From the NCBI RefSeq assembly GCF_019278565.1, contig NZ_CP058988.1:3224001-3288000 (forward strand): a stretch of DNA of 64,000 bases. The letters run 5' to 3'. This DNA is from Cellulophaga sp. HaHa_2_95 (GTDB lineage: Bacteria > Bacteroidota > Bacteroidia > Flavobacteriales > Flavobacteriaceae). The notes beneath the pieces were generated by a model, which had not been told where the DNA came from, searched no databases, and worked only from the letters and a program-made list of their open reading frames with translations. Shown piece after piece: positions 49,104 to 61,418 of this stretch (the first letter of the stretch is position 1; every line of letters begins with the position of its first letter). The translations under genes and the position numbers were made by a program.

Positions 49104-49276
49104 GTCAGAAAATATAATTCTAATACTATCCATCTTTCTTTGGCAGCACACTATTCAAAAAAAACAAGATGTTACCTTCAATGATAATCATCAGTTTTGT
49201 ATACCTCGGTTCTAATTACCTTTGTATCTTGTAATTTAAGTGGTTTTACGACTGCCTATTATTAAAATACAAGTCT

Positions 49277-49870
49277 ATGCTTTGGTGTCTGATACTTTTT
49301 AATTTCATAACGTTTCAAGGAGATTTAACACCTTCCCCAGATAAAACGTTATGGTATGATATTATCTATAAAGAGAAAACTATAGGAAGTTTAAAAGCTA
49401 CAAAAACTCACAAGGATGCCAATACAACCTATCGTACCTCAAGTACTATTGAGTTTAGACTCATAAAAGAGTTTGCTGTAAACTATAATTACAGTGTAGA
49501 TTTTGAGGCTAAACTTTTGAAAAAAGCTGTGGTAAACATTCGTATAAATGATAAGTCACATGCAAAAACACTCACCCAATGGCATGAGAACGAGTATCAC
49601 ATTGAAAAAAACGGAAAGACTGAAGCTCCTCTAGAAAGTACCATTAATTACGCTACCATCTTATTGTATTTTGTAGAACCTTCCAACGTTACAGATTGTT
49701 ATTCTGAGCAAGACGGTAGTTTTAATACCATAATTCCTTTAGGCAATCATGGCTACAAGAAAATAAATGCGAACGGCAAAGGAAATGAGTATTATTATAA
49801 GCAAGGTGTCTTAGAAAAAGCGGTGATAGATGGCGGACTAATATCTTTTGAAATGCAACTGCGCGAATAG
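49277..49870 (+). CDS. DUF6134-like exported protein
   Basis: A 197-residue protein with a short hydrophobic N-terminus (MLWCLILFNFITFQG), a signal peptide or anchor. The mature part is a beta-rich domain: LWYDIIYKEKTIGSLKATK, FAVNYNYSVDFEAKLLKKAVVNIRIND, then INYATILLYFVEP and a C-terminal NGKGNEYYYKQGVLEKAVIDGGLISFEMQL. This order resembles the DUF6134 family of Bacteroidetes, of unknown function; the assignment is from memory of the pattern. It stands alone. Confidence 0.55.
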   Translation: MLWCLILFNFITFQGDLTPSPDKTLWYDIIYKEKTIGSLKATKTHKDANTTYRTSSTIEFRLIKEFAVNYNYSVDFEAKLLKKAVVNIRINDKSHAKTLTQWHENEYHIEKNGKTEAPLESTINYATILLYFVEPSNVTDCYSEQDGSFNTIIPLGNHGYKKINANGKGNEYYYKQGVLEKAVIDGGLISFEMQLRE

Positions 49871-50356
49871 TTTTTAGATAAAATCAGATAAGCCTTCCCT
49901 CCTACTTGTTGATGGTAATTTCAAAAATTAGACCTTAGAAACAGGCATCAAGTCCAAGAAAATTGTCAGTTCGAGTGATTTTTGTGCAGGGTAACGAAAC
50001 AAAAATAGTATCGAGAACTAGCGGCAAGAAAAAGCTTCAAATTCACTCGAAGTGACTACCCTATTCAAGTTAAAAACGCATTATCAGTTCAAGCGATTTT
50101 TGTACAGTGTAACGAAACAAAAATAGTATCGAGAACTAGCGGCAAGAGAAAGCTTCAAACTCATGCGAAGCGACAATTCTATTCAAAAAAACGCATTGTC
50201 AGTTCGAGTGATTTTTGTACAGTGTAACGAAACAAAAATAGTATCGAGAACTAGCGGCAAGAAAAAAAGTACAACAGCATTAATAAAATGTAAAATAAAA
50301 TGTATCCTTTTTAAGGTTTATCAGTCTACTTACTGAACCTTAAAAATTAGAATACT
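49871..50356. other. intergenic region with three hairpin repeats
   Basis: It contains three copies of a 65-bp element (listed separately) separated by 50-53 bp, and then an AT-rich stretch that carries the promoter region of the metallothionein-like gene. No other coding signal is seen. Confidence 0.7.
49965..50262. repeat. three tandem copies of a 65-bp hairpin repeat
   Basis: Copies at 49965-50029, 50083-50147 and 50198-50262 are over 90 percent alike and start 118 and 115 bp apart. Each runs from [GA]TCAGTTC[GA]AG through ATTTTTGT, a 13-nt loop containing GTAACGAA, ACAAAAAT, GTATCGAGAAC to GCGGCAAGA. ATTTTTGT and ACAAAAAT pair exactly, and the outer GTTC...GAAC extends the stem. The spacers between copies are also partly alike (AAAGCTTCAAA, GCGAAG or TCGAAG). 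This is a flavobacterial intergenic repeat family rather than a CRISPR. Confidence 0.85.
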
Positions 50357-50470
50357 ATGAATACTTGTAAATGCACCAATTGTGACTGTGCCAAATGTAA
50401 TTGTAAAAATTGCATGGAACGTAATTGCCCATGTACTATATGTGAATGTACAAAATGTACCTGTTGTTAA
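50357..50470 (+). CDS. metallothionein-like cysteine-rich peptide (37 aa)
   Basis: A 37-residue peptide with 14 cysteines, arranged as C-x-C-x-x repeated with a five-residue period (C4, C6, C9, C11, C14, C16, C19; then C24, C26, C29, C31, C34, C36, C37) and no aromatic residues. The composition is that of a metallothionein, which binds soft metals such as zinc, copper or cadmium in the cytoplasm. It is not like known bacterial SmtA, which has other folds and His ligands, so homology is not claimed. A hairpin terminator separates it from a SigZ-like sigma factor gene 48 bp downstream, which itself has a Cys-rich tail. The two may form a metal- or redox-response unit. Confidence 0.75.
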   Translation: MNTCKCTNCDCAKCNCKNCMERNCPCTICECTKCTCC

Positions 50471-50477
50471 TTTTATC

Positions 50478-50508
50478 AAAAGCTAGTTATTTAACTAGCT
50501 TTTATTTA
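50478..50508 (+). terminator. terminator/attenuator between the Cys-rich peptide and the sigma factor
   Basis: AAAAGCTAGTTA (50478-50489) pairs perfectly with TAACTAGCTTTT (50492-50503) and is followed by ATTTATTTTT. Its place 10 bp before the sigma-factor start suggests the peptide mRNA is mostly ended here, with lower read-through into the sigma factor gene. Confidence 0.8.
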
Positions 50509-50518
50509 TTTTTCAAGT

Positions 50519-51046
50519 ATGGAAACTCAAAAAATATGGAACAAATTTAATGATGAGCTCTATTTTTTTATTTTAAAAAAAACAAAAAGTAAAGACGCTA
50601 CAAATGACATTTTCCAAAATACTTTTCTGAAAATTCATGAAAACTTATCAAAACTAAAAAAAGATGAAAAAGCTAGGGCCTGGGTGTTTCAAATAGCTAG
50701 AAACGAAATAGCCAATTACTATACGAAGGAAGCTGTTTATGTGGAGAAAAATAGCGCGAATATAAGTGAGCCGTTGCAAGAATATCAATCGGTCTGTTGC
50801 TTTGATAAATTCATAGATGATTTACCGGAGATTTACAAACAAGTGATTGAATTGATCTATATCAAAGGGCTAAAACAAAAAGATATTGCCACGCAATTAG
50901 ATATTAGTCTTGAAAATGTAAAAGTAAGAATTAAAAGGGGCAAGGATATTTTAAAGAACGAATTCAACACATGTTGCAAATATGAGTTTGATAAAAATGG
51001 AAAGTTAATTGGGGAGTCTAATTGTGCTGCTTGTAAAGCGAGCTAG
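50519..51046 (+). CDS. ECF RNA polymerase sigma factor, SigZ-like
   Basis: A 175-residue extracytoplasmic-function sigma factor. Region 2 (residues about 10-70) contains DATNDIFQNTFLKIHENL and ARAWVFQIARNEIANYY. Region 4 (about 100-150) is LPEIYKQVIELIYIKGLKQKDIATQLDISLENVKVRIKRGK, a helix-turn-helix that reads the -35 region. The C-terminal tail, NTCCKYEFDKNGKLIGESNCAAC, has a CC pair and a C-x-x-C pair as in SigZ-type factors and could bind zinc or sense thiol state. No anti-sigma gene adjoins it, so the tail itself may be the sensor (inference). Confidence 0.85.
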   Translation: METQKIWNKFNDELYFFILKKTKSKDATNDIFQNTFLKIHENLSKLKKDEKARAWVFQIARNEIANYYTKEAVYVEKNSANISEPLQEYQSVCCFDKFIDDLPEIYKQVIELIYIKGLKQKDIATQLDISLENVKVRIKRGKDILKNEFNTCCKYEFDKNGKLIGESNCAACKAS

Positions 51047-51431
51047 AAAAAGCCTCTAAACGAATCATTGAAGCAGAAAACAACTAATTTCTTCTTTAGG
51101 CTATAAGCTTTGAGTCGTCTAAAAGCTTAGCTGTTGCTTATAATAAAGCTAGACACAATGTAATAGGGCGTTACTTTTAATTTTCAAAGTTATTTCAATT
51201 CTGTGATTTTTAGAAAGGTTTTAAATAGTAATAAGAAATTTTAGACATCATTTACTTTTACAAGATGCTGCAAGTAATCTAGAGTTAGATAAATTTTCAA
51301 GTAAATAGCTAATAATTTTGCTGATTCAATGCTTACCATGTAGCCCATAGTTATATAGCTAAGGAAACGGAGCTTATGGTAATGTCAGTAATATATCGAA
51401 GTTGGTCTTAGTTCTTCAAAATTATATAGAA

Positions 51432-51459
51432 GATATAATGAACATATGTTCAATATATC
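51432..51459. promoter_or_regulatory. palindrome 1 with GAACATATGTTC core
   Basis: A 28-bp inverted repeat with one mismatched pair, centred on GAACATATGTTC. The core matches the LexA (DinR) box known from Gram-positive bacteria, CGAAC-n4-GTTCG, but in Bacteroidetes the regulator is not established. The second palindrome follows with centres 38 bp apart. Confidence 0.5.
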
Positions 51460-51470
51460 TTAAATTGGCA

Positions 51471-51496
51471 GTATAATGAACATATGTTCATTATAC
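51471..51496. promoter_or_regulatory. palindrome 2 with GAACATATGTTC core
   Basis: A perfect 26-bp inverted repeat (GTATAATGAACAT paired with ATGTTCATTATAC). It ends 4 bp before the GTTAGGC core of the first cassette, so a regulator or recombinase bound here would sit at the entrance of the array. Confidence 0.6.
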
Positions 51497-51500
51497 AATT

Positions 51501-51510
51501 GTTAGGCACA
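51501..51510 (+). other. first cassette core site GTTAGGCACA
   Basis: Contains GTTAGGC, a perfect match to the integron core GTTRRRY. Its ten bases return as the exact reverse complement TGTGCCTAAC at 52376-52385, right after the stop of the gene it precedes, so it marks the left end of cassette 1. Confidence 0.65.
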
Positions 51511-51519
51511 ATTAAAAAA

Positions 51520-52374
51520 ATGAGAGAATTTGATTTTTTAGAATTTCACAATAACATTCAAAAAGATTTCAGTGATGTAGCTTCTGTTATTATTTCAATA
51601 GAGAGAGTGGAATGGAACCGAGTTCATTGGCCTAATAATTACGATGATGGATATTATGATGAACAATATGAATTAGATAAAGCAAGATTAGTTGAAATAT
51701 TAAATGGAATAAAATTAAAGTTCGAATTTGCCTATGAAATTTTGAACTTAGTAAATATGTCCTTAAAATTAGAAAGTCAATTAAAAAAACATTTGGACAA
51801 ATTTGATCAATTAGATTTTATACATTTCGTTGATGTTTTTTATTCACCAGCTCAATGGATTTTTAGACAGCATTTGGAAGCCATAACATCTCATATAAAA
51901 ATTGGAACCGAAAATGATTATGAAGACACCTATTCGAAAAGATTGCTTGAACAAATTTTGCGAGGCACACCAAAAATGATTTATGACCGAGCTCTGGAAC
52001 CCTCAAAAGAATCAGAAGTTCAAAGTGAAGTTTATAAAACTTTGATTCACGTTTTTCCTGATACTGTAAGAGAAATTCCGATTGCGAAAATTTCTAAAAC
52101 TTATAAACCAGATATTGGGATTAAACAGTTAAAAAGCGCTATTGAATATAAGTTTGTTGATTCCGCAAAAGAAGCAAAAACTTCTATTGGAGGAATATTT
52201 GAAGACATCCAAGGATATGAAGGTTCGGAAGATTGGACTACTTTTTACGCTGTAATTTATATGACCGATAACTACCTTACTGTAGATCAAGTTGAAGCCG
52301 AATTCAAATTATCAAAAGTCCCACACAACTGGAAACCCATTGTAGTGTATGGAAAAGGAAGTAGGAATAAATAA
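51520..52374 (+). CDS. cassette 1: PD-(D/E)XK nuclease-like protein
   Basis: About 284 residues from the ATG at 51520; an in-frame ATG at 51484 lies inside a palindrome and before the cassette core, so it is rejected. The N-terminal 150 residues are helical. The C-terminal part has a PD-(D/E)XK arrangement: ESEVQSEVYK helix, KISKTYKPDIGI with Asp198, then AIEYKFV with Glu209 and Lys211, and a following amphipathic helix and strand (FYAVIYMTD). This fold is common in restriction and anti-phage nucleases; activity is inferred. The gene stands alone in its cassette between exact inverted cores. Confidence 0.7.
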   Translation: MREFDFLEFHNNIQKDFSDVASVIISIERVEWNRVHWPNNYDDGYYDEQYELDKARLVEILNGIKLKFEFAYEILNLVNMSLKLESQLKKHLDKFDQLDFIHFVDVFYSPAQWIFRQHLEAITSHIKIGTENDYEDTYSKRLLEQILRGTPKMIYDRALEPSKESEVQSEVYKTLIHVFPDTVREIPIAKISKTYKPDIGIKQLKSAIEYKFVDSAKEAKTSIGGIFEDIQGYEGSEDWTTFYAVIYMTDNYLTVDQVEAEFKLSKVPHNWKPIVVYGKGSRNK

Positions 52375-52375
52375 C

Positions 52376-52575
52376 TGTGCCTAACACTATATATAGCAAA
52401 TTGGGCGATTAGTGTTTAATCGAAAAGTCATTGTCTATTTACAAAGTCGCCAAATCTTTTGATTTGGTATTAAAAAAGAAAAATTAAAACAAAATAAAAA
52501 GATTTGGCTTGTGGCTAAACCGATAATAATCGTTTATTTATTGCCCAACATGCCATATATTTAACGTTGCCAGTA
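52376..52575 (+). other. attC-like site 1
   Basis: From TGTGCCTAAC (end core of cassette 1) to GTTGCCAGTA (start core of cassette 2). Inside, the arms TATATAGCAAATTGGGC and GCCCAACATGCCATATA can pair with few mismatches, and a second inverted pair GCCAAATCTTTT / AAAAGATTTGGC lies nearer the centre. Length and plan are like long chromosomal attC sites. It closely resembles attC-like site 5 in sequence. Confidence 0.65.
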
Positions 52576-52585
52576 ATTTAGAAAA

Positions 52586-53326
52586 ATGATAATTGAATAC
52601 GAAAATACATTACGAAAACTTATAACTTCAGTTATAGGATTTAATGATAATACAGACTATAAAGTTTCTTCTGAACGATTAAACAAATGGAAAGAAAAAA
52701 GAGATATTGAATCTAAAAAAAATAATGGAATTTTATTCGAGTCCAGAATTATATTTTTCTCTGACTTTTACGATTTGAAAACAATAATTGATAAAAATTG
52801 GGAACTGTTTTTACCAATTTTAAATGAAAAAAAAAGATTTTCTGTATTTTTTAAAGAAATTGAACAATACAGAAATACAGTAGCTCACGGAAGAAAATTA
52901 ATTAAAAGCCAAGAAGATTTATTATCAGGTATTCTTATGGATTTAAAAAACTCTATAACACAATACCATAATCGAAACGAAAAAATGGATGATTATTTTA
53001 TTGAAATTATTAAAGTAAGTGATAATATAGGAAGTTCTTGGGGAGAATCTATATTCAGTAAAAGTAAAAAACCAACTATTAGAGTTGGCGATGAATATGA
53101 ATTATTAGTGGAAGCTAATGATCCTAAAGATAGAGAAATAGAGTATAAACTATTTCATTTTACTGGAAAACTTAAAATTAATCAAAAATCAAATAGATTT
53201 AATTTTACCATTGACGAAAGTTTAATTGGTCAAAATATTATGATTCTTGTAACAGCTTATACACCAGATTCGGAATATAAAAATGAAAGTTCAATGAAAA
53301 TAAATTTAACTGTATTACCTAAATAA
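52586..53326 (+). CDS. cassette 2: HEPN-motif protein with C-terminal beta domain
   Basis: A 246-residue protein. The N-terminal helical domain (about 1-135) ends with EIEQYRNTVAHGR, containing the HEPN R-x4-H motif (Arg96, His101), as in HEPN-fold RNases of toxin-antitoxin and defence systems (Swt1/MAE_28990-like). The C-terminal 90 residues are beta-rich (IRVGDEYELLVEANDPKDREIEYKLF) and resemble an Ig-like sensing domain. It is the only gene of its cassette, with exact inverted ends GTTGCCAGTA / TACTGGCAAC. RNase activity is inferred from the motif; no partner antitoxin is present. Confidence 0.7.
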   Translation: MIIEYENTLRKLITSVIGFNDNTDYKVSSERLNKWKEKRDIESKKNNGILFESRIIFFSDFYDLKTIIDKNWELFLPILNEKKRFSVFFKEIEQYRNTVAHGRKLIKSQEDLLSGILMDLKNSITQYHNRNEKMDDYFIEIIKVSDNIGSSWGESIFSKSKKPTIRVGDEYELLVEANDPKDREIEYKLFHFTGKLKINQKSNRFNFTIDESLIGQNIMILVTAYTPDSEYKNESSMKINLTVLPK

Positions 53327-53330
53327 AAAC

Positions 53331-53466
53331 TACTGGCAACACCGTATATAATTTATTGCTTGTCCTAGCCTACTTACGAAAATCCTCGCGGATTTTCTAT
53401 TCGGTTTTTATTTGCTAAATTACATCCTAAACCACGCAACAAACCATATACAAACACGTTGTACGC
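53331..53466 (+). other. attC-like site 2
   Basis: From TACTGGCAAC to GTTGTACGC. Outer arms GTATATAATTTATTGC and GCAACAAACCATATAC pair well; the central loop has a GAAAATCCTCGCGGATTTTC hairpin (9-bp stem). It has a different central part from sites 1 and 5 but the same outer plan, AAC-ACCGTATATA at the left and CATATAC...GTT at the right. Confidence 0.65.
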
Positions 53467-53485
53467 AAGCTGAAAAAAGAAAATT

Positions 53486-54061
53486 ATGATTCCAATTTTT
53501 GAACAAGGACATCAACAAGGAATTGGTCACGGATATAATAGCTTTTTAAAAAGATTTATTGATATCTGCGAAAATCACCTGAAAAACAAAAGAGCAAAAT
53601 CATTTGCATTTATACTTTACGATTTTCACGACAAACAAATTCGAGATATTTTGAAAAGTCAAGGTGGATTTGCAAAGCTTGACCGACTTTCAGGCTCGGA
53701 ATTATCCGTTTTCTATATCCATTCTGACAATAAAAAACTAGTTAAAGCATTTAATAGAATTTTTGTTGGAGCATTTGAAATCAAAAATACAGCGGAATTA
53801 CCTTGTGTGCTATTCTTTAAAATGGAAGATGGAGATGTCGATGATGTACAAATCGTTGAATTAGAGCAAACTGACAAAATGTTTGCATTCCAAGAACTAT
53901 ATAACACTATTGAAAATTATCTAAAAAACAGTAAAAATTTACCTACCCCAAAAAGAAACAAACTAACTGAATTCATTGGTAAAGTAAAAACAATTACAGT
54001 TGAAGAATTAATCAAATGGGTAATCGGACAAGGATTAGAAAGAGCAGAAGATATATATTAA
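53486..54061 (+). CDS. cassette 3, gene a: hypothetical protein
   Basis: A 191-residue protein of unknown family, predicted cytoplasmic. The N-terminal half is alpha/beta: FLKRFIDICENHLKNK, then SFAFILYDFHDKQIRDIL and SGSELSVFYIHS, followed by LPCVLFFKMEDGDVDDVQIVEL. The C-terminal 50 residues are helical. The alternation hints at a thioredoxin-like or receiver-like fold, but no catalytic motif is visible. It lies 4 bp before the HEPN-motif gene in the same cassette, so the two probably work together, perhaps as sensor and effector. Confidence 0.6.
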   Translation: MIPIFEQGHQQGIGHGYNSFLKRFIDICENHLKNKRAKSFAFILYDFHDKQIRDILKSQGGFAKLDRLSGSELSVFYIHSDNKKLVKAFNRIFVGAFEIKNTAELPCVLFFKMEDGDVDDVQIVELEQTDKMFAFQELYNTIENYLKNSKNLPTPKRNKLTEFIGKVKTITVEELIKWVIGQGLERAEDIY

Positions 54062-54065
54062 ATGA

Positions 54066-54812
54066 ATGGCGGAAAAACACGACATAGATACTTATTCAAA
54101 ACTAGAACTTGGAGCTTCATTTTTCCTTCAAGAATCTTTTCACCACATTCATAGTGCTTTATCCTACGAATATGCTTCAATTTTATTTGCAGAAGAATTG
54201 GATAAAATAGAACCATCAAAAGCTGATAGAAAGGTAATGGATACAATGAACTTACCAAATAATGCTGTTGGAATTCTACAATCGAATATTCCTGATGTTC
54301 TTACCGATGAAACCTTAGGTAAGATGTCTGTATCTTGGCAAAAATCTCAATTGAAAGCCAACAATAGTAAACACAAGTTTGGTCTAAACCACAGAATAGA
54401 TTCGATAGAAATCCTTGGGCACTTAAACAACTTTGGATTTTTTATGGAGACTCTAATAAATAGACACCTTTTGTTTCTAAAGCAAACTAAAGAGATAGAT
54501 GATTTTAGCTACGCAAGAATCTCTGTGGCAAAGGTTATGGAAAGAATCATTTATATCTTCAAAGAAGACTTGACTAATGGAAAAACTCATCTTAATGAAA
54601 TAGTAAACTTGTTCAGTTTGAGAAACAAAACAGTTCATTTTACACCAGACAATGCAAAAGCATTAAAACCTAAAATTTCTGAATTAATACAAATTTGGAA
54701 TCAAAGTGAAAAGCTTATCAAAAAGTTGGAAAAACAAGAGAAATTTAATGAAGAAAAATTCTCAATTAGATTAGCTAATCATATAAAAGAAATAAAAGAA
54801 AGGTGGAATTAA
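54066..54812 (+). CDS. cassette 3, gene b: HEPN-motif helical protein
   Basis: A 248-residue all-helical cytoplasmic protein. Near its C-terminus NLFSLRNKTVHFTPDNAKAL holds an R-x4-H motif (Arg186, His191) with the typical R-N-x-x-V-H form of HEPN domains. The central MERIIYIFKEDL and N-terminal QESFHHIHSALSYEYASILFAEEL helices fit the bundle. HEPN proteins with this motif are often RNases or nucleotidyltransferase partners in defence and toxin-antitoxin systems. It follows gene a by 4 bp; its stop is directly followed by the cassette end core GCGTACAAC. Confidence 0.65.
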   Translation: MAEKHDIDTYSKLELGASFFLQESFHHIHSALSYEYASILFAEELDKIEPSKADRKVMDTMNLPNNAVGILQSNIPDVLTDETLGKMSVSWQKSQLKANNSKHKFGLNHRIDSIEILGHLNNFGFFMETLINRHLLFLKQTKEIDDFSYARISVAKVMERIIYIFKEDLTNGKTHLNEIVNLFSLRNKTVHFTPDNAKALKPKISELIQIWNQSEKLIKKLEKQEKFNEEKFSIRLANHIKEIKERWN

Positions 54813-54940
54813 GCCAGCGTACAACAAAGAACTGAGGTAAAAAACAAGTAAATTCTTCCTTAATCTGAGACACTATTATTCTAGGCTCATAAATTCAAAA
54901 AACAGATTCTTGAGCTTTTTTTTTTCGGTTTATTCCCTAT

Positions 54941-55929
54941 TTATTTAGGTAATACAGAAACATAAGCTTCATCATAGGGTCTGCCAGATTTTGCGATAGC
55001 AAAGGACTGTTTAAGTAGTTTGTTAGCAACTGCTATCAGTGCCAGTTTCTTGCTCTTCCCTTTGTTCACGATTCGCTCATATACCGCTCTGCATGCCTTG
55101 TTGTGTTTACAGGCATTGAAAGAACATAGAAACAATAGATTACGAAGCTTTCTATTACCGACCTTACTTATTCTCGCTTGACCTCTTACGCTGCTCCCCG
55201 ACTCTCGTATCGTTGGGGTTATACCTACATAACTACAAAGCTGTGATGCCGTTTCAAACTTACTGAAACCATCAGTGACCACTATTAGGAACAATGCGGT
55301 CTTTTGCCCTATACCAGGTATTGATGTCAACAAGGTCAATTGCTCTTGTTGGTCCTCTTTCACTAATGATAGAATCTTTGATTCGATTGCCGTTACTTCT
55401 TTATTGAGCTGCTTCTTGTTGCGTATCAACGAACGATAAACAAACTTTGAGGGTATACCTAAAACCGCTTCCCCATGTATTTTGTTCTTGGTTGCCGTTC
55501 GTTGTTTTAAATAGGCATCCAATAACCGGAACAACTGTAGACACTCACTCTGGGTATCCGTCAAAGCATTGTAAATAGGAACCTCGTTGATCAGGGCATA
55601 TTCACATATAGCCTTGGCATCGCTTTTGTCCGTTTTCACCTTTGCCAGTTTCATTTGAATGAACCGCTTTATAGATAATGGGTTTACTACTGAAACTACT
55701 ACTTCATTTTTGTAAAGAAACTGTGCAAGTCTGTAATGATAATAACCGGTAGCTTCCATAACAACCAATGAACTTTTGGGTAATTCCTTAAGGAATTTCT
55801 TAAATCCAATTTCATCATTCTTATACTGGTCATGACCTTGGTTACTACCATGTACATCAAAGACATCCCTGCCTGCCGGCAGGCAGGTTTACTGATGTCA
55901 ACTCCAAAAGTTTCTTTATATTTATTCAT
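54941..55929 (-). pseudogene. IS110-family transposase, frameshifted by a 20-bp palindrome
   Basis: The transposase reads MNKYKETFGVDISK from 55929. It is then broken by a 20-nt insertion (55868-55887) and resumes in another frame as DVFDVHGSNQGHDQYKND and on through VVMEATGYYHYRLAQF to the stop at 54941. Removing the 20 nt restores one frame of about 322 residues. The DEDD residues are visible: D in FGVDIS, E in VMEATG, D and D in KTDKSDAKAI. The C-terminal Transposase_20 HhH region IPGIGQKTALFLI and the GSSVRGQARISKVGNRKLR block are intact. An inner ATG at 55768 could give a 275-residue product lacking the first catalytic Asp. Confidence 0.85.
55868..55887. repeat. 20-bp perfect palindrome CCTGCCTGCCGGCAGGCAGG (copy 1)
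   Basis: A perfect self-complementary 20-mer inside the transposase gene. Because 20 is not a multiple of 3 it shifts the frame, and it creates the odd residues PACRQAG. It is far richer in GC than its surroundings. A second copy with one base changed lies at 56001-56020. Confidence 0.9.
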
Positions 55930-56000
55930 AAGAAATGTTTTATGAAAGAACTAGCTACTTCTGCTCACAACAACTTGAAAACGAGATCTAAAGTCTCACA

Positions 56001-56020
56001 CCTGCCTGCCGACAGGCAGG
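56001..56020. repeat. 20-bp palindrome CCTGCCTGCCGACAGGCAGG (copy 2)
   Basis: Differs from copy 1 only at the 12th base (G to A). It lies between the transposase start and the 144-bp conserved end of the IS, 113 bp from copy 1. Both look like insertions of the same mini-palindrome. Confidence 0.85.
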
Positions 56021-56026
56021 GAACTG

Positions 56027-56170
56027 AACGTGATTTAAGTAGTAAAAGAGAGAGGATTATCAATGTTGTCGAAGTCTAAAGCTTCACCGTGTATACTAAC
56101 CTTAATTCTCTCTTTTGTTCTTTCTAGTTATAGCAACAATTTACTAAGAATCAAACTTAAGACGTGTATA
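56027..56170 (-). ncRNA. candidate IS110 bridge-RNA region (copy 1)
   Basis: A 144-bp stretch upstream of the transposase start, where IS110-group elements encode their bridge RNA. It recurs with 9 differences at 58743-58886. It contains a stem AAAAGAGAG / CTCTCTTTT, an inner GAAG...CTTC hairpin, and CACCGTGTATA at 56085-56095. The last equals the target rebuilt from the flanks (AACA plus CCGTGTATA) and would be a target-guide candidate. The strand is given as that of the transposase. Transcription and function are inferred. Confidence 0.45.
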
Positions 56171-56352
56171 AAACATAGCTAATAAAGGCTTAACTCAAGG
56201 GTTTGTGCTTATTTGCAAAGATCGCCAAATTTTTAAATTTGGCTTTTAGAATAAAAAATTAAAAACAAAACATAAAAATTCGGCTCTGTGTTTATCCGAA
56301 AATTTAGCGTCTTTTTACACGCTACGTTTCATACACAAGACCGTTGGCAGTA
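56163..56352 (+). other. attC-like site 3 (right part, interrupted by IS110)
   Basis: The left core GCGTACAAC is at 54817-54825, before the IS; the rest is here. Left arm CGTGTATAAAACATAG pairs with CTACGTTTCATACACA near the right end, followed by the start core of cassette 4, GTTGGCAGTA (56343-56352). The middle has GCCAAATTTTTAAATTTGGC, a perfect inverted pair. Without the IS the site would be about 200 bp. Confidence 0.6.
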
Positions 56353-56442
56353 ATATAATAAAAGGACAAGTAAAACACAGATTTGGAAAAGTTTTAAGAG
56401 TTAAGATATCTCAACTTTGTATTAAACATAAAACAAAGAATT

Positions 56443-57183
56443 ATGAGTAATCTAAAAGGAAAAATTGCGATAGTAACAGGTTCATCAAGAGGTATAGGAG
56501 CTGAAATAGCCAAAACACTAGGCAAAAACGGAGCTAAAATAGTAATCAACTACACAACAAATAAAGATTCAGCTGAAAGAGTTGTTAACGAAATTATTCA
56601 AAATGGCTCTGAAGCAATCAGTATACAGGCCGATGTCAGCCTTCAAAAAGATGTAAGTCGTTTATTTGACGAAACAATTAATCATTTTGGTAAGATTGAT
56701 ATTCTAGTAAACAACGCTGGAGTAATGCTTAACTCTTTAATTAAAGATACTACAGACGATTTGTTTGACAAACAAATAAATATTAATGTAAAAGGAGTGT
56801 TCAATACATTTCGGGAAGCATCAACCAAATTAGCTGATAACGGAAGTATCATCAATCTTTCATCTACAGTTACACGTACAATTTTTCCAACTTACGGCAT
56901 TTATTCCGCATCTAAAATAGCCGTAGAACAGATGAGTAAAGTTTTTGCTAAAGAAATAGGTAATAGAGGTATTAAAGTAAACTGTGTATTACCTGGACCA
57001 ACAAGTACCGAATTATTTTTAAAAGGAAAATCGGAAGGATTAATATCACAACTCGCAAATAATAATGCCTTTAAGAGATTAGGAACTCCAAGTGATATTG
57101 CAAAAGTAGTTGCTTTTTTAGCCAGTGATGAAGCAAAATGGATTTCAGCTCAAAATATTGGTGCTAACGGAGCTATGGCATAA
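56443..57183 (+). CDS. cassette 4, gene a: short-chain dehydrogenase/reductase
   Basis: A 246-residue classical SDR of the 3-oxoacyl-[acyl carrier protein] reductase-like group. Cofactor loop TGSSRGIGAEIAK (T-G-x3-G-x-G), NNAG (in VNNAGVM), catalytic Ser in INLSST and YSASK with the catalytic Tyr and Lys. An acidic or NADP-binding choice cannot be judged with certainty. It is probably cytosolic and reduces or oxidises a small carbonyl compound. It is first of three genes in one cassette, 18 bp before the DUF1097-like gene. Confidence 0.85.
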   Translation: MSNLKGKIAIVTGSSRGIGAEIAKTLGKNGAKIVINYTTNKDSAERVVNEIIQNGSEAISIQADVSLQKDVSRLFDETINHFGKIDILVNNAGVMLNSLIKDTTDDLFDKQININVKGVFNTFREASTKLADNGSIINLSSTVTRTIFPTYGIYSASKIAVEQMSKVFAKEIGNRGIKVNCVLPGPTSTELFLKGKSEGLISQLANNNAFKRLGTPSDIAKVVAFLASDEAKWISAQNIGANGAMA

Positions 57184-57201
57184 CTTAAAAACAAATTTAT
57201 T

Positions 57202-57678
57202 ATGAAACAATTTTTAACAGCCATAACAATGGGCACTTTGGGTGCATTAGCCGTTTTTATATCATTTTCATTCCATTGGCCAACTTGGCTACTCTTTATT
57301 GCTTGGCTAAGCTATTATATATTTGGTAAATCTTTAAAATCTGCTTTCTATACATTAATACCTATTACAACAGGAATATTTATGGGGATTTCAATACAAA
57401 TATTAGGAGGTTTTTTCAGTAAATATCTTGGAGCTATTGGTTTTCCTATAGCAGTATTCATATTTATTACATCATTAACTTATTTGGCAAAAATTAAATT
57501 ATTAAGTAATATTCCTGCTTGGTTTATTGGATTAATTATTTTCTTTGGTATTCATCCATCGATAGAATTTAAACCAATATTAAGTTTATTTATTCCTATA
57601 ATTGTTGGATTTTTGTTTGCCTTTTTAAACGACATAACAGCAGATAGAATTCAAAAAAATAAATCAGTTTTAAAATAA
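57202..57678 (+). CDS. cassette 4, gene b: DUF1097-like membrane protein
   Basis: A 158-residue inner-membrane protein with five hydrophobic helices over almost its whole length (for example ITMGTLGALAVFISFSF, WLLFIAWLSYYIFG, FPIAVFIFITSLTYLA, WFIGLIIFFGI and LFIPIIVGFLFAFL). The pattern resembles the DUF1097 family of small inner-membrane proteins with unknown role. It lies between the SDR gene and the AraC gene with gaps of 18 and 4 bp, so all three form one operon within the cassette. Confidence 0.7.
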   Translation: MKQFLTAITMGTLGALAVFISFSFHWPTWLLFIAWLSYYIFGKSLKSAFYTLIPITTGIFMGISIQILGGFFSKYLGAIGFPIAVFIFITSLTYLAKIKLLSNIPAWFIGLIIFFGIHPSIEFKPILSLFIPIIVGFLFAFLNDITADRIQKNKSVLK

Positions 57679-57682
57679 TAAT

Positions 57683-58609
57683 ATGGTAAACCTAAAAAAA
57701 TTCTCAAAAATTAAGGATTACCATAACTTTGCTAATCTTAGCACTCCTAAACATCCTTTAATTAGTTTGATAAACTATAGTGAAGTTAAATACCCTGAAG
57801 ACATTAAAGAATTAAATTTTGTACAAGAATATTATACTATTGGTTTAAAACGAAATGTTCCTTACAAATTTTTTTATGGTCAACAAGAATATGATTTTGA
57901 TGAGGGAGTAATGACTTTTATTTCTCCGAATCAAGTTTTGAATATGGAAAGTAATCCAAATGTTAATTCGAATAAAGAATTAAAACCTTCAGGTTGGTTA
58001 CTTTGTATTCATCCAGGTTTTTTATGGAATACTTCTTTATCAAAATTAATTAAAACGTACGATTTTTTTGGATACGTTATCAATGAAGCATTATTCCTTT
58101 CTGAAAAAGAAGAACTTATGATGATTGATATTTTAAAAAACATTGAAAAAGAATACCAAGCTAATATTGATAAGTTTAGTCAGAAAATAATAGTTTCACA
58201 ATTAGAGCTATTATTAAATTATGCCGAACGATTTTATGAACGCCAATTTATTACTCGCAATAAATCAAATCATCAACTTTTAGAGCGAGTTGAAAATTTA
58301 TTATCGAACTATTTTAATCAAAGTGATTTAATTGAGCTTGGTTTACCAACTGTTGAATATATTTCAAATAAACTTAATCTTTCTTCAAATTATTTAAGTA
58401 GTATGCTTAAATCTTTAACTGGAATGAGTACGCAACAACACATTCACAACAAATTGATTGATAAAGCAAAGGAACAATTATCTATAACGCAATCTCCTAT
58501 TAGTGAAATTGCATATAAATTAGGCTTCGAATATCCTTCCTCATTCAACAAACTGTTTAAGAGTAAAACTGAAATGTCACCTTTGGAATTCAGGAAAAAA
58601 TTTAATTAG
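57683..58609 (+). CDS. cassette 4, gene c: AraC-family transcriptional regulator
   Basis: A 308-residue regulator. The N-terminal 190 residues are an effector-binding domain with a cupin-like strand order (YTIGLKRNVPYKFFYGQQEYDFDEGVMTFISPNQVL). The C-terminal 100 residues carry two helix-turn-helix units: PTVEYISNKLNLSSNYLSSMLK and SPISEIAYKLGFEYPSSFNKLFK, ending MSPLEFRKKFN, the classical AraC/XylS signature. It likely controls the SDR and membrane genes of its own cassette in response to a small molecule; this is inference from arrangement. The cassette end core TACTGCCAAC follows its stop within 15 bp. Confidence 0.88.
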   Translation: MVNLKKFSKIKDYHNFANLSTPKHPLISLINYSEVKYPEDIKELNFVQEYYTIGLKRNVPYKFFYGQQEYDFDEGVMTFISPNQVLNMESNPNVNSNKELKPSGWLLCIHPGFLWNTSLSKLIKTYDFFGYVINEALFLSEKEELMMIDILKNIEKEYQANIDKFSQKIIVSQLELLLNYAERFYERQFITRNKSNHQLLERVENLLSNYFNQSDLIELGLPTVEYISNKLNLSSNYLSSMLKSLTGMSTQQHIHNKLIDKAKEQLSITQSPISEIAYKLGFEYPSSFNKLFKSKTEMSPLEFRKKFN

Positions 58610-58629
58610 AAAAAAATACTACTGCCAAC

Positions 58630-58877
58630 AATGGTAACCGTTGCACAACTCCATAATTACAAAATAATAGCCTTTATGACCGCCTTCTAAGGCGGTTTAA
58701 TTTTTCAATTAGTTAATTAATTGGTTGTTTTTAAGGTGTTTAAACGTGATTTAAGTAGTAAAAGAGAGCCAATTATCAATATTGTCGAAGTCTAAAGCTT
58801 CACCGTGTATAGCAACCTTAATTCTCTCTTTTGTTCTTTCTAGTTATAACAACAATTTACTGAGAATCAAACTTAAG
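58630..58877 (-). mobile_element. solo IS110-end insertion in attC-like site 4
   Basis: About 248 bp between the end core of cassette 4 (TACTGCCAAC, 58620-58629) and CCGTGTATA (58878-58886) of attC-like site 4, the same position at which the full IS110 sits in site 3. Its right 135 bp match the upstream end of that IS; its left part is unrelated to the IS and carries a hairpin (58679-58696). No transposase remains. It is either a decayed insertion or a minimal element mobilised in trans. Confidence 0.55.
58679..58705 (+). terminator. hairpin after cassette 4
   Basis: ACCGCCTT (58679-58686) pairs perfectly with AAGGCGGT (58689-58696) across a CT loop, followed by TTAATTTTT. It probably ends the three-gene transcript of cassette 4. 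Confidence 0.75.
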
Positions 58878-58886
58878 CCGTGTATA
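58743..58886 (-). ncRNA. candidate IS110 bridge-RNA region (copy 2)
   Basis: A 144-bp sequence with 9 substitutions and no indel relative to 56027-56170. The CACCGTGTATA segment (58801-58811) is unchanged and matches the right flank CCGTGTATA (58878-58886). Six changes cluster just outside the AAAAGAGAG stem (AGGA to CCAA), at GTTG to ATTG, and next to the guide-like segment (CT to GC). It is kept without a transposase, which hints at function or a recent event. Confidence 0.4.
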
Positions 58887-59004
58887 ATTAATTGATTTGG
58901 TCGTTGCCTACTTGGAAAATTCCTTCGGAATTTTCTCGCGTTCGTTTTTGTTTACTAAATTAGTTACTGAAACACGCAACTAACCATACACAACAACGTT
59001 GTGC
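58878..59004 (+). other. attC-like site 4 (right part)
   Basis: Left arm GTGTATAATTAATTG pairs with CAACTAACCATACAC; the centre holds the hairpin GAAAATTCCTTCGGAATTTTC. The right core GTTGTGC (58998-59004) starts cassette 5. The left core of this site is at 58620-58629, on the other side of the solo IS end. Confidence 0.6.
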
Positions 59005-59007
59005 ATA

Positions 59008-59634
59008 ATGAAAAATAATCAAAAAAATAGGAAAATGAAAAGTCTTAATGGAACTTGGTTAATGATAAAAACAGGAGATGATTATGGACCTCCTGAATTC
59101 ATTGAATTCAAGAATGACCAAATTATTCACTTTGATTTGGAGAAAAAAAGCGGAGATAAATTAGTAAAAAAAACTTCTGAATGGAATGAAAAACTAATTG
59201 AATCCAAATATGAGTTTATAAATGACAATCGGATAAGAATTTATAGAATGGGAAAAACCCATACTGTTATTAGTGAAACGGAATCTAAAATAGAGGACAC
59301 TGAATATGAAATAGATTACGAAAGAATTACACCTACTGAAACCGAATTAACTGCAAATAAAATACAAAAACTTGAATTCAAAGCTGAATGGAATAATGAG
59401 AAAATTCCTTTCGTTTTTAATACAGAACTTGACAGCAAATCAATAAAAGAAATTAATAAGGAGCTAAACAGAGAAGGGCAAAAATTAGTATTAGAAAATC
59501 TGCAAGGAACTTATTTTGCTTCAGTTTATGACAATGGAAAAAGAAGAACTCTAATTGGTATTAAAGAAATTACCGAAGAGAAAGCAATCCTTTATGGTTT
59601 TCCTGAAATACCATATCAAATTATAGCGAAATAA
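59008..59634 (+). CDS. cassette 5: hypothetical lipocalin-like protein
   Basis: About 208 residues from the ATG at 59008; another ATG at 59035 (MKSLNGTWLMIKTG) is equally plausible because the nine residues between are only Lys, Asn, Gln and Arg. A TTG at 58999 lies within the cassette core and is rejected. The start LNGTW and alternating strands resemble cytoplasmic lipocalin-like barrels, but no family is assigned and no signal peptide is present. The C-terminal KEITEEKAILYGFPEIPYQII is also beta. It is the only gene of its cassette (GTTGTGC / GCACAAC). Confidence 0.6.
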   Translation: MKNNQKNRKMKSLNGTWLMIKTGDDYGPPEFIEFKNDQIIHFDLEKKSGDKLVKKTSEWNEKLIESKYEFINDNRIRIYRMGKTHTVISETESKIEDTEYEIDYERITPTETELTANKIQKLEFKAEWNNEKIPFVFNTELDSKSIKEINKELNREGQKLVLENLQGTYFASVYDNGKRRTLIGIKEITEEKAILYGFPEIPYQIIAK

Positions 59635-59648
59635 TAAAAAAGTACTAA

Positions 59649-59846
59649 GCACAACACAATATATAGCAAATTGGGCGATTAGTGTGTAACCGAAAGTTCA
59701 TTGTTTATTTGCAAAGTCGCCAAATCTTTTGATCTGGTATTTAAAGAGAAAAATTAAAACAAAATAAAAAGTTTTGGCTAAGTGCTTAATCGGAAATTAA
59801 TCGTTTATTTATTCCCGTACTAATCATGGCCGAGACAGTTCGCAGC
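59649..59846 (+). other. attC-like site 5
   Basis: From GCACAAC (59649-59655) to GTTCGCAGC (59838-59846). Much of its left and central sequence is close to attC-like site 1 (ATATATAGCAAATTGGGCGA, GTCGCCAAATCTTTTGAT, AAATTAAAACAAAATAAAAA), so sites 1 and 5 share a recent ancestor although 7 kb apart. The right arm is more diverged. Confidence 0.6.
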
Positions 59847-59856
59847 AATTCAAGGA

Positions 59857-60237
59857 ATGGCAAAACAGACAGCATTTGAATTTTATACCGCTTTGGAAAA
59901 TCAATTTCCTAAAGTCAAACAACTATACCTTCTTAAAGATATTGACCTTGATGAAGATGGATTCGAGAACTGTGGAATTATGACAAAACTTGCGAAGCAA
60001 TTAACACAGTTTGTACAAGATGGTGAGTGTGAAGAAGCAATTCAATTTATGAACGCTGTGGAAAATGCTTTTGAAATAGCTGAGTCAACGGTAACCAATT
60101 ACCTATACACAGATTTTTTAGTAACGATAATGGAACAAAAAAAGGAACCTAAAGAGTATCTAAAATCAATTATGGGATCGAAAACAAAGGAACATTACCA
60201 GAATCTTTTTGCTTTCTATCGAGAAATTGATAATTAA
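59857..60237 (+). CDS. cassette 6: small helical protein (DUF7674-like)
   Basis: A 126-residue cytoplasmic, mostly helical and acidic protein. It contains MNAVENAFEIAESTVTNYLYTDFLVTIM and ends KEHYQNLFAFYREID, a pattern I associate with DUF7674-type proteins, some of which sit in immunity-gene settings; this is from memory and not certain. The start ATG is 10 bp after the cassette core GTTCGCAGC. The end core GCTGCTAAC follows the stop by 5 bp and pairs with the start core at 8 of 9 positions. Confidence 0.6.
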   Translation: MAKQTAFEFYTALENQFPKVKQLYLLKDIDLDEDGFENCGIMTKLAKQLTQFVQDGECEEAIQFMNAVENAFEIAESTVTNYLYTDFLVTIMEQKKEPKEYLKSIMGSKTKEHYQNLFAFYREIDN

Positions 60238-60242
60238 TAAAA

Positions 60243-60421
60243 GCTGCTAACACGGTACATAGCAAATAGGGCGTTCGGTGGTTTACGAAAGTTCAATGCT
60301 ATTTACAATAGTCCGCTAAATATAAAATTTTGATATTTATATCGGAAAAAATAAAAGCAATATATTTATAGGTACCTAAGTAATAAATCGAAACGAAAAT
60401 GCTTATTTTATGCCCTACATT
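60243..60421 (+). other. attC-like site 6 (terminal, no right core)
   Basis: It begins GCTGCTAACAC and has the left arm CATAGCAAATAGGGC and a right arm GCCCTACATTTAGGATAC, but no GTT core after the right arm. It therefore looks like the last site of the array, where the next sequence is ordinary chromosome. Confidence 0.5.
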
Positions 60422-60446
60422 TAGGATACAATTTTTATAAACCACT

Positions 60447-61145
60447 ATGATAGATTTATCTCATGCTGAGCATCAAATTCGCTGTGTCACAAATTTTGAC
60501 GACCTTATTTCCATGCCTTTTATGGGAAAAATTAACGCGGCTTGTTGGACTCGTGAATTAGTAGGCGATTTTTCTGAGATCATCCAGCAATTAGAACTTC
60601 ACGAAAACATAGCGGAAATTGGTCAAGAAGAGCTTCGTGAACTCGAATTAAGCGATCAGGGACAACTTGCTCGTGAAATTCTTTTAAATGATTTGCAGGC
60701 CCTAAAAAATCATGGTGCATCTCCAGTACTAAATCTAATCAAGTGTTATGAAAGAGATGATGCGTACCCATTTTTCCCTACAGATGTGTATTCTTTTCAT
60801 GTAGATCGTTCTCCGATCCCAACCGATACCTTTTTATGTACCTATCACGGTGATTCGAGTGATATAATTCCCAATTCACAAGCCATTCAAAAAGTATTGG
60901 TTCCTGAAATTCGGGCAGAACTCAGAAAACTGTATGGTGGTGCTGATGAAGGTTTTGAAGCATTTTTAAGTGAGTATTTCTTTGATCTCCATTATCACCC
61001 CAAACCTAAAGCACCTATTATGAACTTAGGCATTGGTCATTTATGGAAATTAGCCGTAGATCATCCCGAAAGTCAATCTCTTCCGTGTATTCACCGCGCA
61101 CCTAACGAAATAACAGGACAACACCGTTTGTTGCTGATCTGTTAA
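60447..61145 (+). CDS. DUF1826 family protein
   Basis: A 232-residue cytoplasmic protein matching the DUF1826 pattern: an N-terminal ACWTREL segment, central CYERDDAYPFFPTD, then FHVDRSPIPTDTFLCTYHGDSSDI and a C-terminal IHRAPNEITGQHRLLLIC. The conserved His, Asp and Cys residues could bind a metal, and the F-H-x-D-R...H-G-x-S-S layout recalls 2-oxoglutarate oxygenase-like folds, which is only a suggestion. It is the first gene beyond the cassette array. Confidence 0.75.
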   Translation: MIDLSHAEHQIRCVTNFDDLISMPFMGKINAACWTRELVGDFSEIIQQLELHENIAEIGQEELRELELSDQGQLAREILLNDLQALKNHGASPVLNLIKCYERDDAYPFFPTDVYSFHVDRSPIPTDTFLCTYHGDSSDIIPNSQAIQKVLVPEIRAELRKLYGGADEGFEAFLSEYFFDLHYHPKPKAPIMNLGIGHLWKLAVDHPESQSLPCIHRAPNEITGQHRLLLIC

Positions 61146-61418
61146 ATAGATATCAAAAAAAAATACAGATTTTTAAGTACACTGTAATCTAACGAAAGAC
61201 CTATTATTTTCTCAAAAAAATTATTGACAGTACCCTTTGCCTATAATTTATAAATGTAAAAATTAAACGCCCGTAATGTACTAGATGATGCTCTAATATA
61301 TAGTGACAAAAAACGTAACATATACAGCTGAGAACCAATACCTATGTGTTTAGAAACTGCGTTTAGCCTAGCTTTAAAGTCATATTAAGCCTAACCTCCT
61401 AATTAGTATACTTGTTTG

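Follow-up and report, generated by a model that had tools for sequence, protein, structure and literature searches.

A probable integron-type cassette array in Cellulophaga sp. HaHa_2_95 and its candidate Bacteroidota-type integrase in trans

Integrons are the best-known platform for gene capture. A stretch of 64,000 nucleotides of Cellulophaga sp. HaHa_2_95 (assembly GCF_019278565.1, contig NZ_CP058988.1), bases 3224001-3288000 of the closed 4.54 Mb chromosome and hereafter called the window, raises the question whether genes that are each bracketed by a short core and its reverse complement are integron cassettes, and if so, which enzyme may have moved them. Six such cassette-like units (c1 to c6) lie at window positions 51501-60251, four of them well paired, one (c5) weaker and one (c6) decayed. 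We consider it highly probable that this array consists of integron-type cassettes with attC-like sites (predicted hairpins) behind a palindromic attI-like head, and that its likely recombinase, acting in trans, is a Bacteroidota-type tyrosine integrase whose gene lies 141 kb from the array. Direct support comes from the anatomy, from covariation within the sites, from a predicted bias towards the bottom strand, from the linkage of the integrase with attI and cassettes, and from identical cassettes with exact ends in new places. In the following, G numbers denote genomes of the genus (G000 being this strain), and L numbers denote loci.

Self-paired cores and the structure of the sites

All six pairs of start and end cores that had been claimed from the sequence alone are present, including the single mismatch of the sixth, which falls on base 4 (10 of 14 bases of the c6 pair match overall). 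The contiguous own pairs (Table 1) sum to 49 bases, a value reached by one of 720 permutations, namely the true assignment; pairings across cassettes span 3-5 contiguous bases. The claim that pairing lies inside each cassette rather than between neighbours is thereby confirmed. A companion expectation, that paired cores are commoner than in simulated sequence, holds only modestly. Positions 51001-60500 contain six 10-nt pairs, three of which are not cassette ends; 300 Markov simulations gave 1.6 such pairs on average and 5 at most. The counts of 7-, 8- and 9-nt pairs (104, 34 and 12) remain below the simulated maxima (109, 38 and 15). Raw pair counts alone are weak evidence, and counting was therefore replaced by permutation, chaining and site structure. 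The weight of the observation rests on pairs that bracket genes and succeed one another.

In c1 and c2, 180 and 117 bases separate the end core from the following start core; the ends of these stretches form an inverted repeat, and both sites are intact by folding. The two halves of the c5 and c6 sites pair poorly, and no next cassette start follows c6. A scan of the window with Rfam returned no match.

Site structure was studied on 112 linked cassettes from 27 loci, 102 of which were kept (10 with GTT[CT] were dropped). Position 11 is A in the start core and C in the end core in 72 of the 75 cassettes with exactly ten paired bases, and pairing resumes for at least two bases beyond this position in 71 of them. 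Position 11 forms a T.G wobble when the bottom strand folds and an A.C mismatch when the top strand does. Covariation was assessed on a selection of 34 of the 43 short sites and 33 of the 41 long sites. Paired cells amount to 95.6% (short) and 97.2% (long), percentages that are favoured by construction because the structure was derived from the same alignments. Pairs changed on both sides number 13 of 16 and 17 of 27, respectively, and the covariation score is 0.51 (short) and 0.54 (long) versus 0.135 and 0.150 for shuffles and 0.04-0.14 for slid controls. Of 500 shuffles of the long sites, 7 and 22 attained two of the five measures; no shuffle attained any of the remaining measures. The sequence-only reading had taken the sites to be attC-like, and folding with such strong covariation bears this out.

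The inner arm carries two more nearly fixed G.T pairs, present in 26 and 33 of 34 short sites and in 32 and 33 of 33 long sites. Throughout the paired arms, the consensus structures keep no base-filled unpaired column; G.T wobbles are kept instead, and these are the fixed asymmetry found in the arms. In canonical attC sites, according to passages of PMC2727003, extrahelical bases choose the strand, a role that the wobbles may take here. The bottom strand is predicted to be the more stable hairpin in 94 of 98 sites folded in circular form (DNA folding parameters; means -31.2 vs -27.3 kcal/mol), in a set from which L043, L044, L081 and L048 were omitted because their chains held chance links.

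A distant integrase and its attI-like sites

A search of the genome with the integron-integrase model TIGR02249 matched best at 3133931-3134725, below the cut-off and with model positions 180-239 unmatched; the protein matches the model in two pieces with 206.5 bits (cut-off 265). The gene (L043:5598-6728) encodes a tyrosine integrase of 376 amino acids, 98% identical to a Cellulophaga baltica protein and about 80% identical to many proteins of marine Flavobacteriia; at an E value of 1e-60 or better it is the one match in the genome. It points towards cassettes of its own with the same own pairing (e.g., GTTGTAGTGA, GTTGGCAATA, GTTGTGTGCA). The DUF1877 cassette of this main array occurs twice, at L043:9059-9665 and at the start of L044, about 8.8 kb apart, and the second copy adjoins what by eye appears to be an insertion sequence.

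The integrase gene and the window array are connected by the attI-like head. The 31 bases at window positions 51473-51503 are identical to chromosome positions 3134744-3134774, right after the integrase stop codon, where the directly adjoining sequence is ATAATGAACATATGTTCATTATACAATTGTT. The same 31 bases also head an array at 2022023, and further copies lie at 1967885 (one mismatch) and 3293512 (three mismatches), which gives five attI-like copies (one of them poor) for one such integrase. Beside them, the last 13 (window), 29 (1967885) and 50 (2022023) bases of the integrase gene are matched, and none at 3293512. In the stretches examined around these four copies no integrase gene was found. 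The copies at 2022023 and 1967885 (L047, L048) head paired cassettes, and no paired cassette was found at 3293512 (L046). About 100 bases before the copy at 1967885 lies a decayed attI of a second type, a type that occurs in 5 of the 18 genomes of the genus; attI of the first type (at most three mismatches) is present in 5, 4, 4 and 3 copies in G000, G001, G002 and G009, respectively, and the other 14 genomes have none.

The association is not confined to this strain. A paired first cassette (partner of at least 9 bases) follows 12 of 21 distinct attI-like sites, compared with 66 of 1044 random GTT positions. An inverted repeat and GTT within about 30-60 bases of the integrase stop were found at nine further loci in the genus, and an exact inverted repeat (arms of at least 8) precedes GTT at 15 of 23 integrase loci versus 30 of 500 random stretches, the loci without it including L103, L110, L117 and L125. 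By sequence, an attI thus adjoins the integrase gene, with an inverted repeat and GTT past the stop codon and cassettes beyond them. In this clade, the anatomy is that of a single integrase accompanied by several attI-headed arrays, and this one integrase would act at all attI copies.

A rival view is that the system is a canonical IntI-type integron, merely diverged in sequence. It has the same parts in the same order, TIGR02249 does match in two pieces, and a clade joining the array-type integrases with two IntI rows is not rejected (p-AU, approximately unbiased test, 0.686), a value that is compatible with a common origin with IntI and equally with its absence. We nevertheless regard this view as improbable, given the score below the cut-off and the missing model positions. 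The spacing of motifs is 62-67 in 27 of 30 array-type and related integrases (three not measurable) versus 85 and 104 in two IntI, and 46 residues of PDB 2a3v have no counterpart in the protein. The position-11 rule is absent from the cassettes of a canonical IntI control (L165, Pseudoalteromonas, 403.6 bits). In a tree of 88 rows, the array-type integrases stand on one side, and Xer and proteobacterial rows on the other (SH-aLRT, an approximate likelihood ratio test, 93, not starred); the topology test used 81 rows, without L130, L163, L039, L126, L105, L157 and L165. The system appears to work like an integron, yet its integrase lies outside the bounds by which IntI is recognized. NCBI labels such proteins 'site-specific tyrosine recombinase/integron integrase' via a general family.

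The integrase carries an extra N-terminal domain of uncertain kinship. A HARP / XPB-type DNA-binding domain at residues 1-79 is a lead only, because unrelated aIF1/eIF1 chains tie with XPB, and the N-terminal profile, searched against PDB sequences, returned nothing noteworthy. The full-length model (predicted template modelling score, pTM, 0.44) is too poor for more than a match of the catalytic part.

Movement of cassettes and the locus in relatives

In 20 array sequences, 137 cassettes satisfied a strict rule that asked for 10-nt pairing, for GTTR and for position 11 being A and C. Self-pairing cassettes lie in one orientation; the longest open reading frame (ORF) runs with the array in 126 of the 137, and the median body is 661 bp. 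Cassettes that are 100% identical occur in different places: 479 bp in G000 (satellite) and G010, 518 and 648 bp at three places each in G001, and 703 bp at two places in G001. A 745-bp cassette shared by G001 and G012 shows 99.5% identity. The DNA 190-700 bp away from these cassettes shows no similarity on either side; two pairs in G007 have one similar side each and may be longer duplications. The two 479-bp copies are identical from CGTT onwards, across the site and up to the following GTT; in G010, the left neighbour is attI itself. Cassettes have thus been gained, lost or moved at exact ends. Mobility, which the sequence-only reading had inferred, gains support from identical cassettes in different contexts with breaks between C and GTT.

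Might ordinary homologous recombination between similar sites move the cassettes, without any site-specific enzyme? The sites are alike, as illustrated by 92.6% identity between the c2 site and one in G009. Against this, the left break of the G000/G010 pair falls between C and GTT with no similarity leftwards, G010 having attI there and not attC; arrays lie behind integrases in several genera; and the paired arms covary. We consider this explanation very improbable.

At the window locus, G009 keeps the upstream flank (window 49257-51140, repeats rearranged) and, at 95.6%, c5, c6 and the downstream flank (58879-61316), with about 6 kb of other sequence in place of c1-c4. Model R1 of the attC-like sites matches at least one site in this segment (G009:C1:3658017). 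In G001, the upstream flank is followed by an attI pair 89% identical to that of the window and then by a different first core; a search of 1.5 kb yielded no partner for this core, and the downstream flank of the window lies elsewhere. The G002 contig ends near attI. By the comparison with G009 and G001, c1-c4 are variable and c5-c6, with their damaged sites, look fixed. The check in relatives that the sequence-only reading had called for thus shows other DNA between conserved flanks in place of c1-c4. Together with covariation and identical cassettes elsewhere, these locus differences support the reading of the array as integron-type cassettes. Beyond that reading, the analysis added the integrase with its own array, the attI-like head, further attI-headed arrays and the insertion sequence in the c3 site.

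The locus may also suggest a relic array similar to clusters of attC sites lacking an integrase (CALIN), an old integron product beyond the reach of any integrase and retained for its genes. The array contains no integrase, the damaged c5-c6 sites are kept in G009, and two sites contain an insertion sequence or its remnant. At the same time, the attI-like head is identical to one at a complete integrase gene of the same genome, folding shows the sites of c1 and c2 to be intact, G009 has other DNA in place of c1-c4, and G001 differs in the first core. We hold a relic to be possible, though rather unlikely.

Several observations weigh against an integron-type array served in trans and should be stated together. 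No integrase gene lies at the window array itself, and the integrase that would serve it lacks the additional domain specific to IntI. The start core GTTRRRY occurs in 9 of the 137 cassettes (GTTR was required at collection). Only part of the attI-like sites have a paired first cassette in the stretch examined, although the partner at 2022023, one of the 9 misses, is situated just past it. The G009 locus has no attI match and no cassette by the strict rule, and c5-c6 look fixed and decayed. Finally, in a wider set, 68 of 79 integrase loci showed no downstream chain of at least two cassettes by either count (see below); this absence says little, because many contigs end close to the integrase.

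Table 1. Features of the array and its inserted element (window positions; IS, insertion sequence).
Feature	Positions	Strand	Core or motif	Contiguous own pair (nt)	Contents
attI-like array head	51434-51503	+	AACATATGTT (51441, 51479)		two palindromes around the motif, then ACAATT and GTT (51501)
Cassette c1	51501-52565	+	GTTAGGCACA	10	ORF 51520-52374; site 52376-52565
Cassette c2	52566-53457	+	GTTGCCAGTA	10	ORF 52586-53326 (HEPN-like); site 53331-53457
Cassette c3	53458-56342	+	GTTGTACGC	9	ORFs 53486-54061 and 54066-54812; IS within site
IS110-family IS	54826-56161	-			transposase ORF 54941-55768; abuts c3 end core AAC
Cassette c4	56343-58997	+	GTTGGCAGTA	10	ORFs 56443-57183 (short-chain dehydrogenase-like), 57202-57678 (no family), 57683-58609 (AraC-like regulator); site with IS remnant at 58743-58877
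Cassette c5	58998-59837	+	GTTGTGC	7	ORF 58999-59634 as listed; site partly damaged
Cassette c6	59838-60440	+	GTTCGCAGC (one mismatch)	3	ORF 59857-60237; decayed array end

The c1 product is restriction-nuclease-like, of the DpnII-MboI family (Pfam DpnII-MboI, E 5e-9; PADLOC Aga_Helical-REase, E 2e-11). The c2 product matches PADLOC PDC-M34B (E 1e-12) and, below its cut-off, Pfam HEPN_Swt1 (E 4e-4). Phage defence may be among the functions of this cargo (51520-53326), because the two products resemble a restriction-type nuclease and a HEPN-like anti-phage candidate. Neither c3 product and not that of c5 matched a family in Pfam, NCBIfam or PADLOC; the NCBIfam matches of c4 lie below their cut-offs, and the c6 product is DUF7674-like (Pfam DUF7674, 26.4 bits, just below cut-off).

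The transposase of the insertion sequence matches Pfam Transposase_20 and DEDD_Tnp_IS110, and the junctions of the element were read directly. The remnant in the c4 site is the same insertion sequence (repeat of 145 nt, 94%). The element is also present in G001 (L189, 82% identity), directly after an attC end core AAC, and its end pieces mark two further sites, the one in c4 and L044:4437-4462. By analogy, it appears to target these attC-like sites as IS1111-type elements do canonical attC. An element of the IS110/IS1111 kind at a fixed place in attC recalls the IS1111-attC group named in the reference list of PMC11187229; the host and the type of attC differ here, and the assignment between the IS110 and IS1111 families is provisional. 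Further upstream, at about 49950-50250, imperfect repeats precede a sigma-factor gene and are arranged otherwise in G009 and G001.

Distribution, known systems and meaning

An integrase match at E 1e-60 or better is present in 16 of 18 genomes of the genus, and a full-length integrase at 57% identity or more in 10 (split in G009). Behind the integrase, self-paired chains comprise 17 cassettes in 20 kb of G001, 16 in G007, 7 in G012 and 4 in G016 (L082, L083, L086, L087); G011 and G014 have chains of two each, and G002, G009 and G010 one cassette or chains with doubtful links. In longer sequence, 20 are chained in G001 (the last doubtful), and G007 has a second run of 26. Site models R1 and R2 match all 18 genomes, with 4-84 matches for R1 and 13-131 for R2 (11 and 40 in this strain). 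Scoring was limited to 150 and 146 candidates per genome, which makes each model's counts minimum values; R1 and R2 matches may overlap. The models contain no sequence from ten of the 18 genomes (G002-G006, G008, G013-G015, G017). G008 and G017 have many attC-like sites (39 and 57 matches with R1 and R2 in the one, 29 and 28 in the other) and no integrase match at E 1e-60.

The wider set consisted of 80 integrase loci from species genomes, 79 of which were tested (L132 was left out). Chains of at least two starting within 400 bp downstream were found at nine (L090, L093, L095, L096, L101, L103, L110, L117, L125), all Bacteroidota by record titles, the chain of L103 including at least one doubtful link. 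At the Flavobacteriaceae loci L111 and L115, chains of 8 and 9 cassettes begin at a greater distance downstream. No locus among the 79 titled as another phylum had a downstream chain of two. As a measure of chance links, outward chains of at least two on the upstream side were found at 3 of 79 loci (L095 with 2, L133 with 3, L165 with 4); with free start, the chains in the upstream halves reached 4 at L165, 3 at both L133 and L155, and 2 at several loci. The chain of L165, on the other side of its integrase, serves as positive control, a divergent layout of integrase and cassettes being usual in IntI integrons. In L133 (Peregrinibacteria), only the first site of the three looks real. This similar-looking site with a near-identical pairing rule lies outward of an integrase without the IntI insert; the integrase and site type may thus extend beyond Bacteroidota.

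The system shares with IntI chromosomal integrons a tyrosine integrase, an adjoining attI, one-way cassettes and bottom-strand folding (predicted here), as well as the G after AAC on the bottom strand that passages of PMC2727003 give for canonical attC. It differs by an integrase without the IntI insert and with the extra N-terminal domain, encoded by a gene that points towards the array (that of L165 points away), by longer sites (about 117 and 180 bp between cores) with G.T wobbles as fixed asymmetry, by start cores that are rarely GTTRRRY, and by several attI copies per genome. In its catalytic part and motif spacing the integrase resembles Xer-type recombinases (XerA, NF040815; PDB 4a8e, 5hxy, 1a0p), which have neither the extra N-terminal domain nor cassette arrays behind the gene. 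With at least two attC less than 4 kb apart and no integrase beside them, the window array agrees with the description of CALIN in passages of PMC9668308; unlike CALIN, it has an attI-like head in a genome that encodes an integrase with the same attI. The phylum Bacteroidota is among the integron carriers listed in parts of PMC8618304, PMC2426708 and PMC9668308, and the relevant part of the IntegronFinder 2.0 paper reports one complete integron in Bacteroidetes proper, in Salinibacter ruber M1 (PMC9024848). No description of the present type was found in the open-access literature searched, which did not include bioRxiv or most subscription papers.

Based on these data, we propose a mechanism in which the hairpin formed by the bottom strand of attC would be the substrate of the integrase and would be joined to the double-stranded attI at GTT, whereby cassettes would insert in a single orientation behind attI and exit as circles. 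The strand would be chosen by the conserved G.T wobbles, which are paired on the bottom strand and become A.C mismatches on the top strand, and the extra N-terminal domain, standing in for the IntI insert, may contribute to holding the folded site. The same integrase would be the enzyme that moved the cassettes; it would act in trans at the window array and may still be active. More tentatively, and with somewhat less than even expectation, we hypothesize a separate Bacteroidota integron class, in which a Xer-like integrase carries an added N-terminal domain for folded DNA, G.T wobbles act as a strand code in the attC sites, and a single integrase serves several attI-headed arrays at scattered places on the chromosome. 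Such a class would have been overlooked because detection keys on IntI.

All 18 genomes of one flavobacterial genus contain attC-like sites, tens to more than 100 in most. Different species share identical cassettes, and this type of integrase, with its arrays, is also found in other Bacteroidota. If the proposed reading is true, the IntI insert would be dispensable for integron function, and wobble pairs could encode strand choice. A large cassette pool of marine bacteria would be opened to study, to which the nuclease-like and HEPN-like genes of this window would belong.

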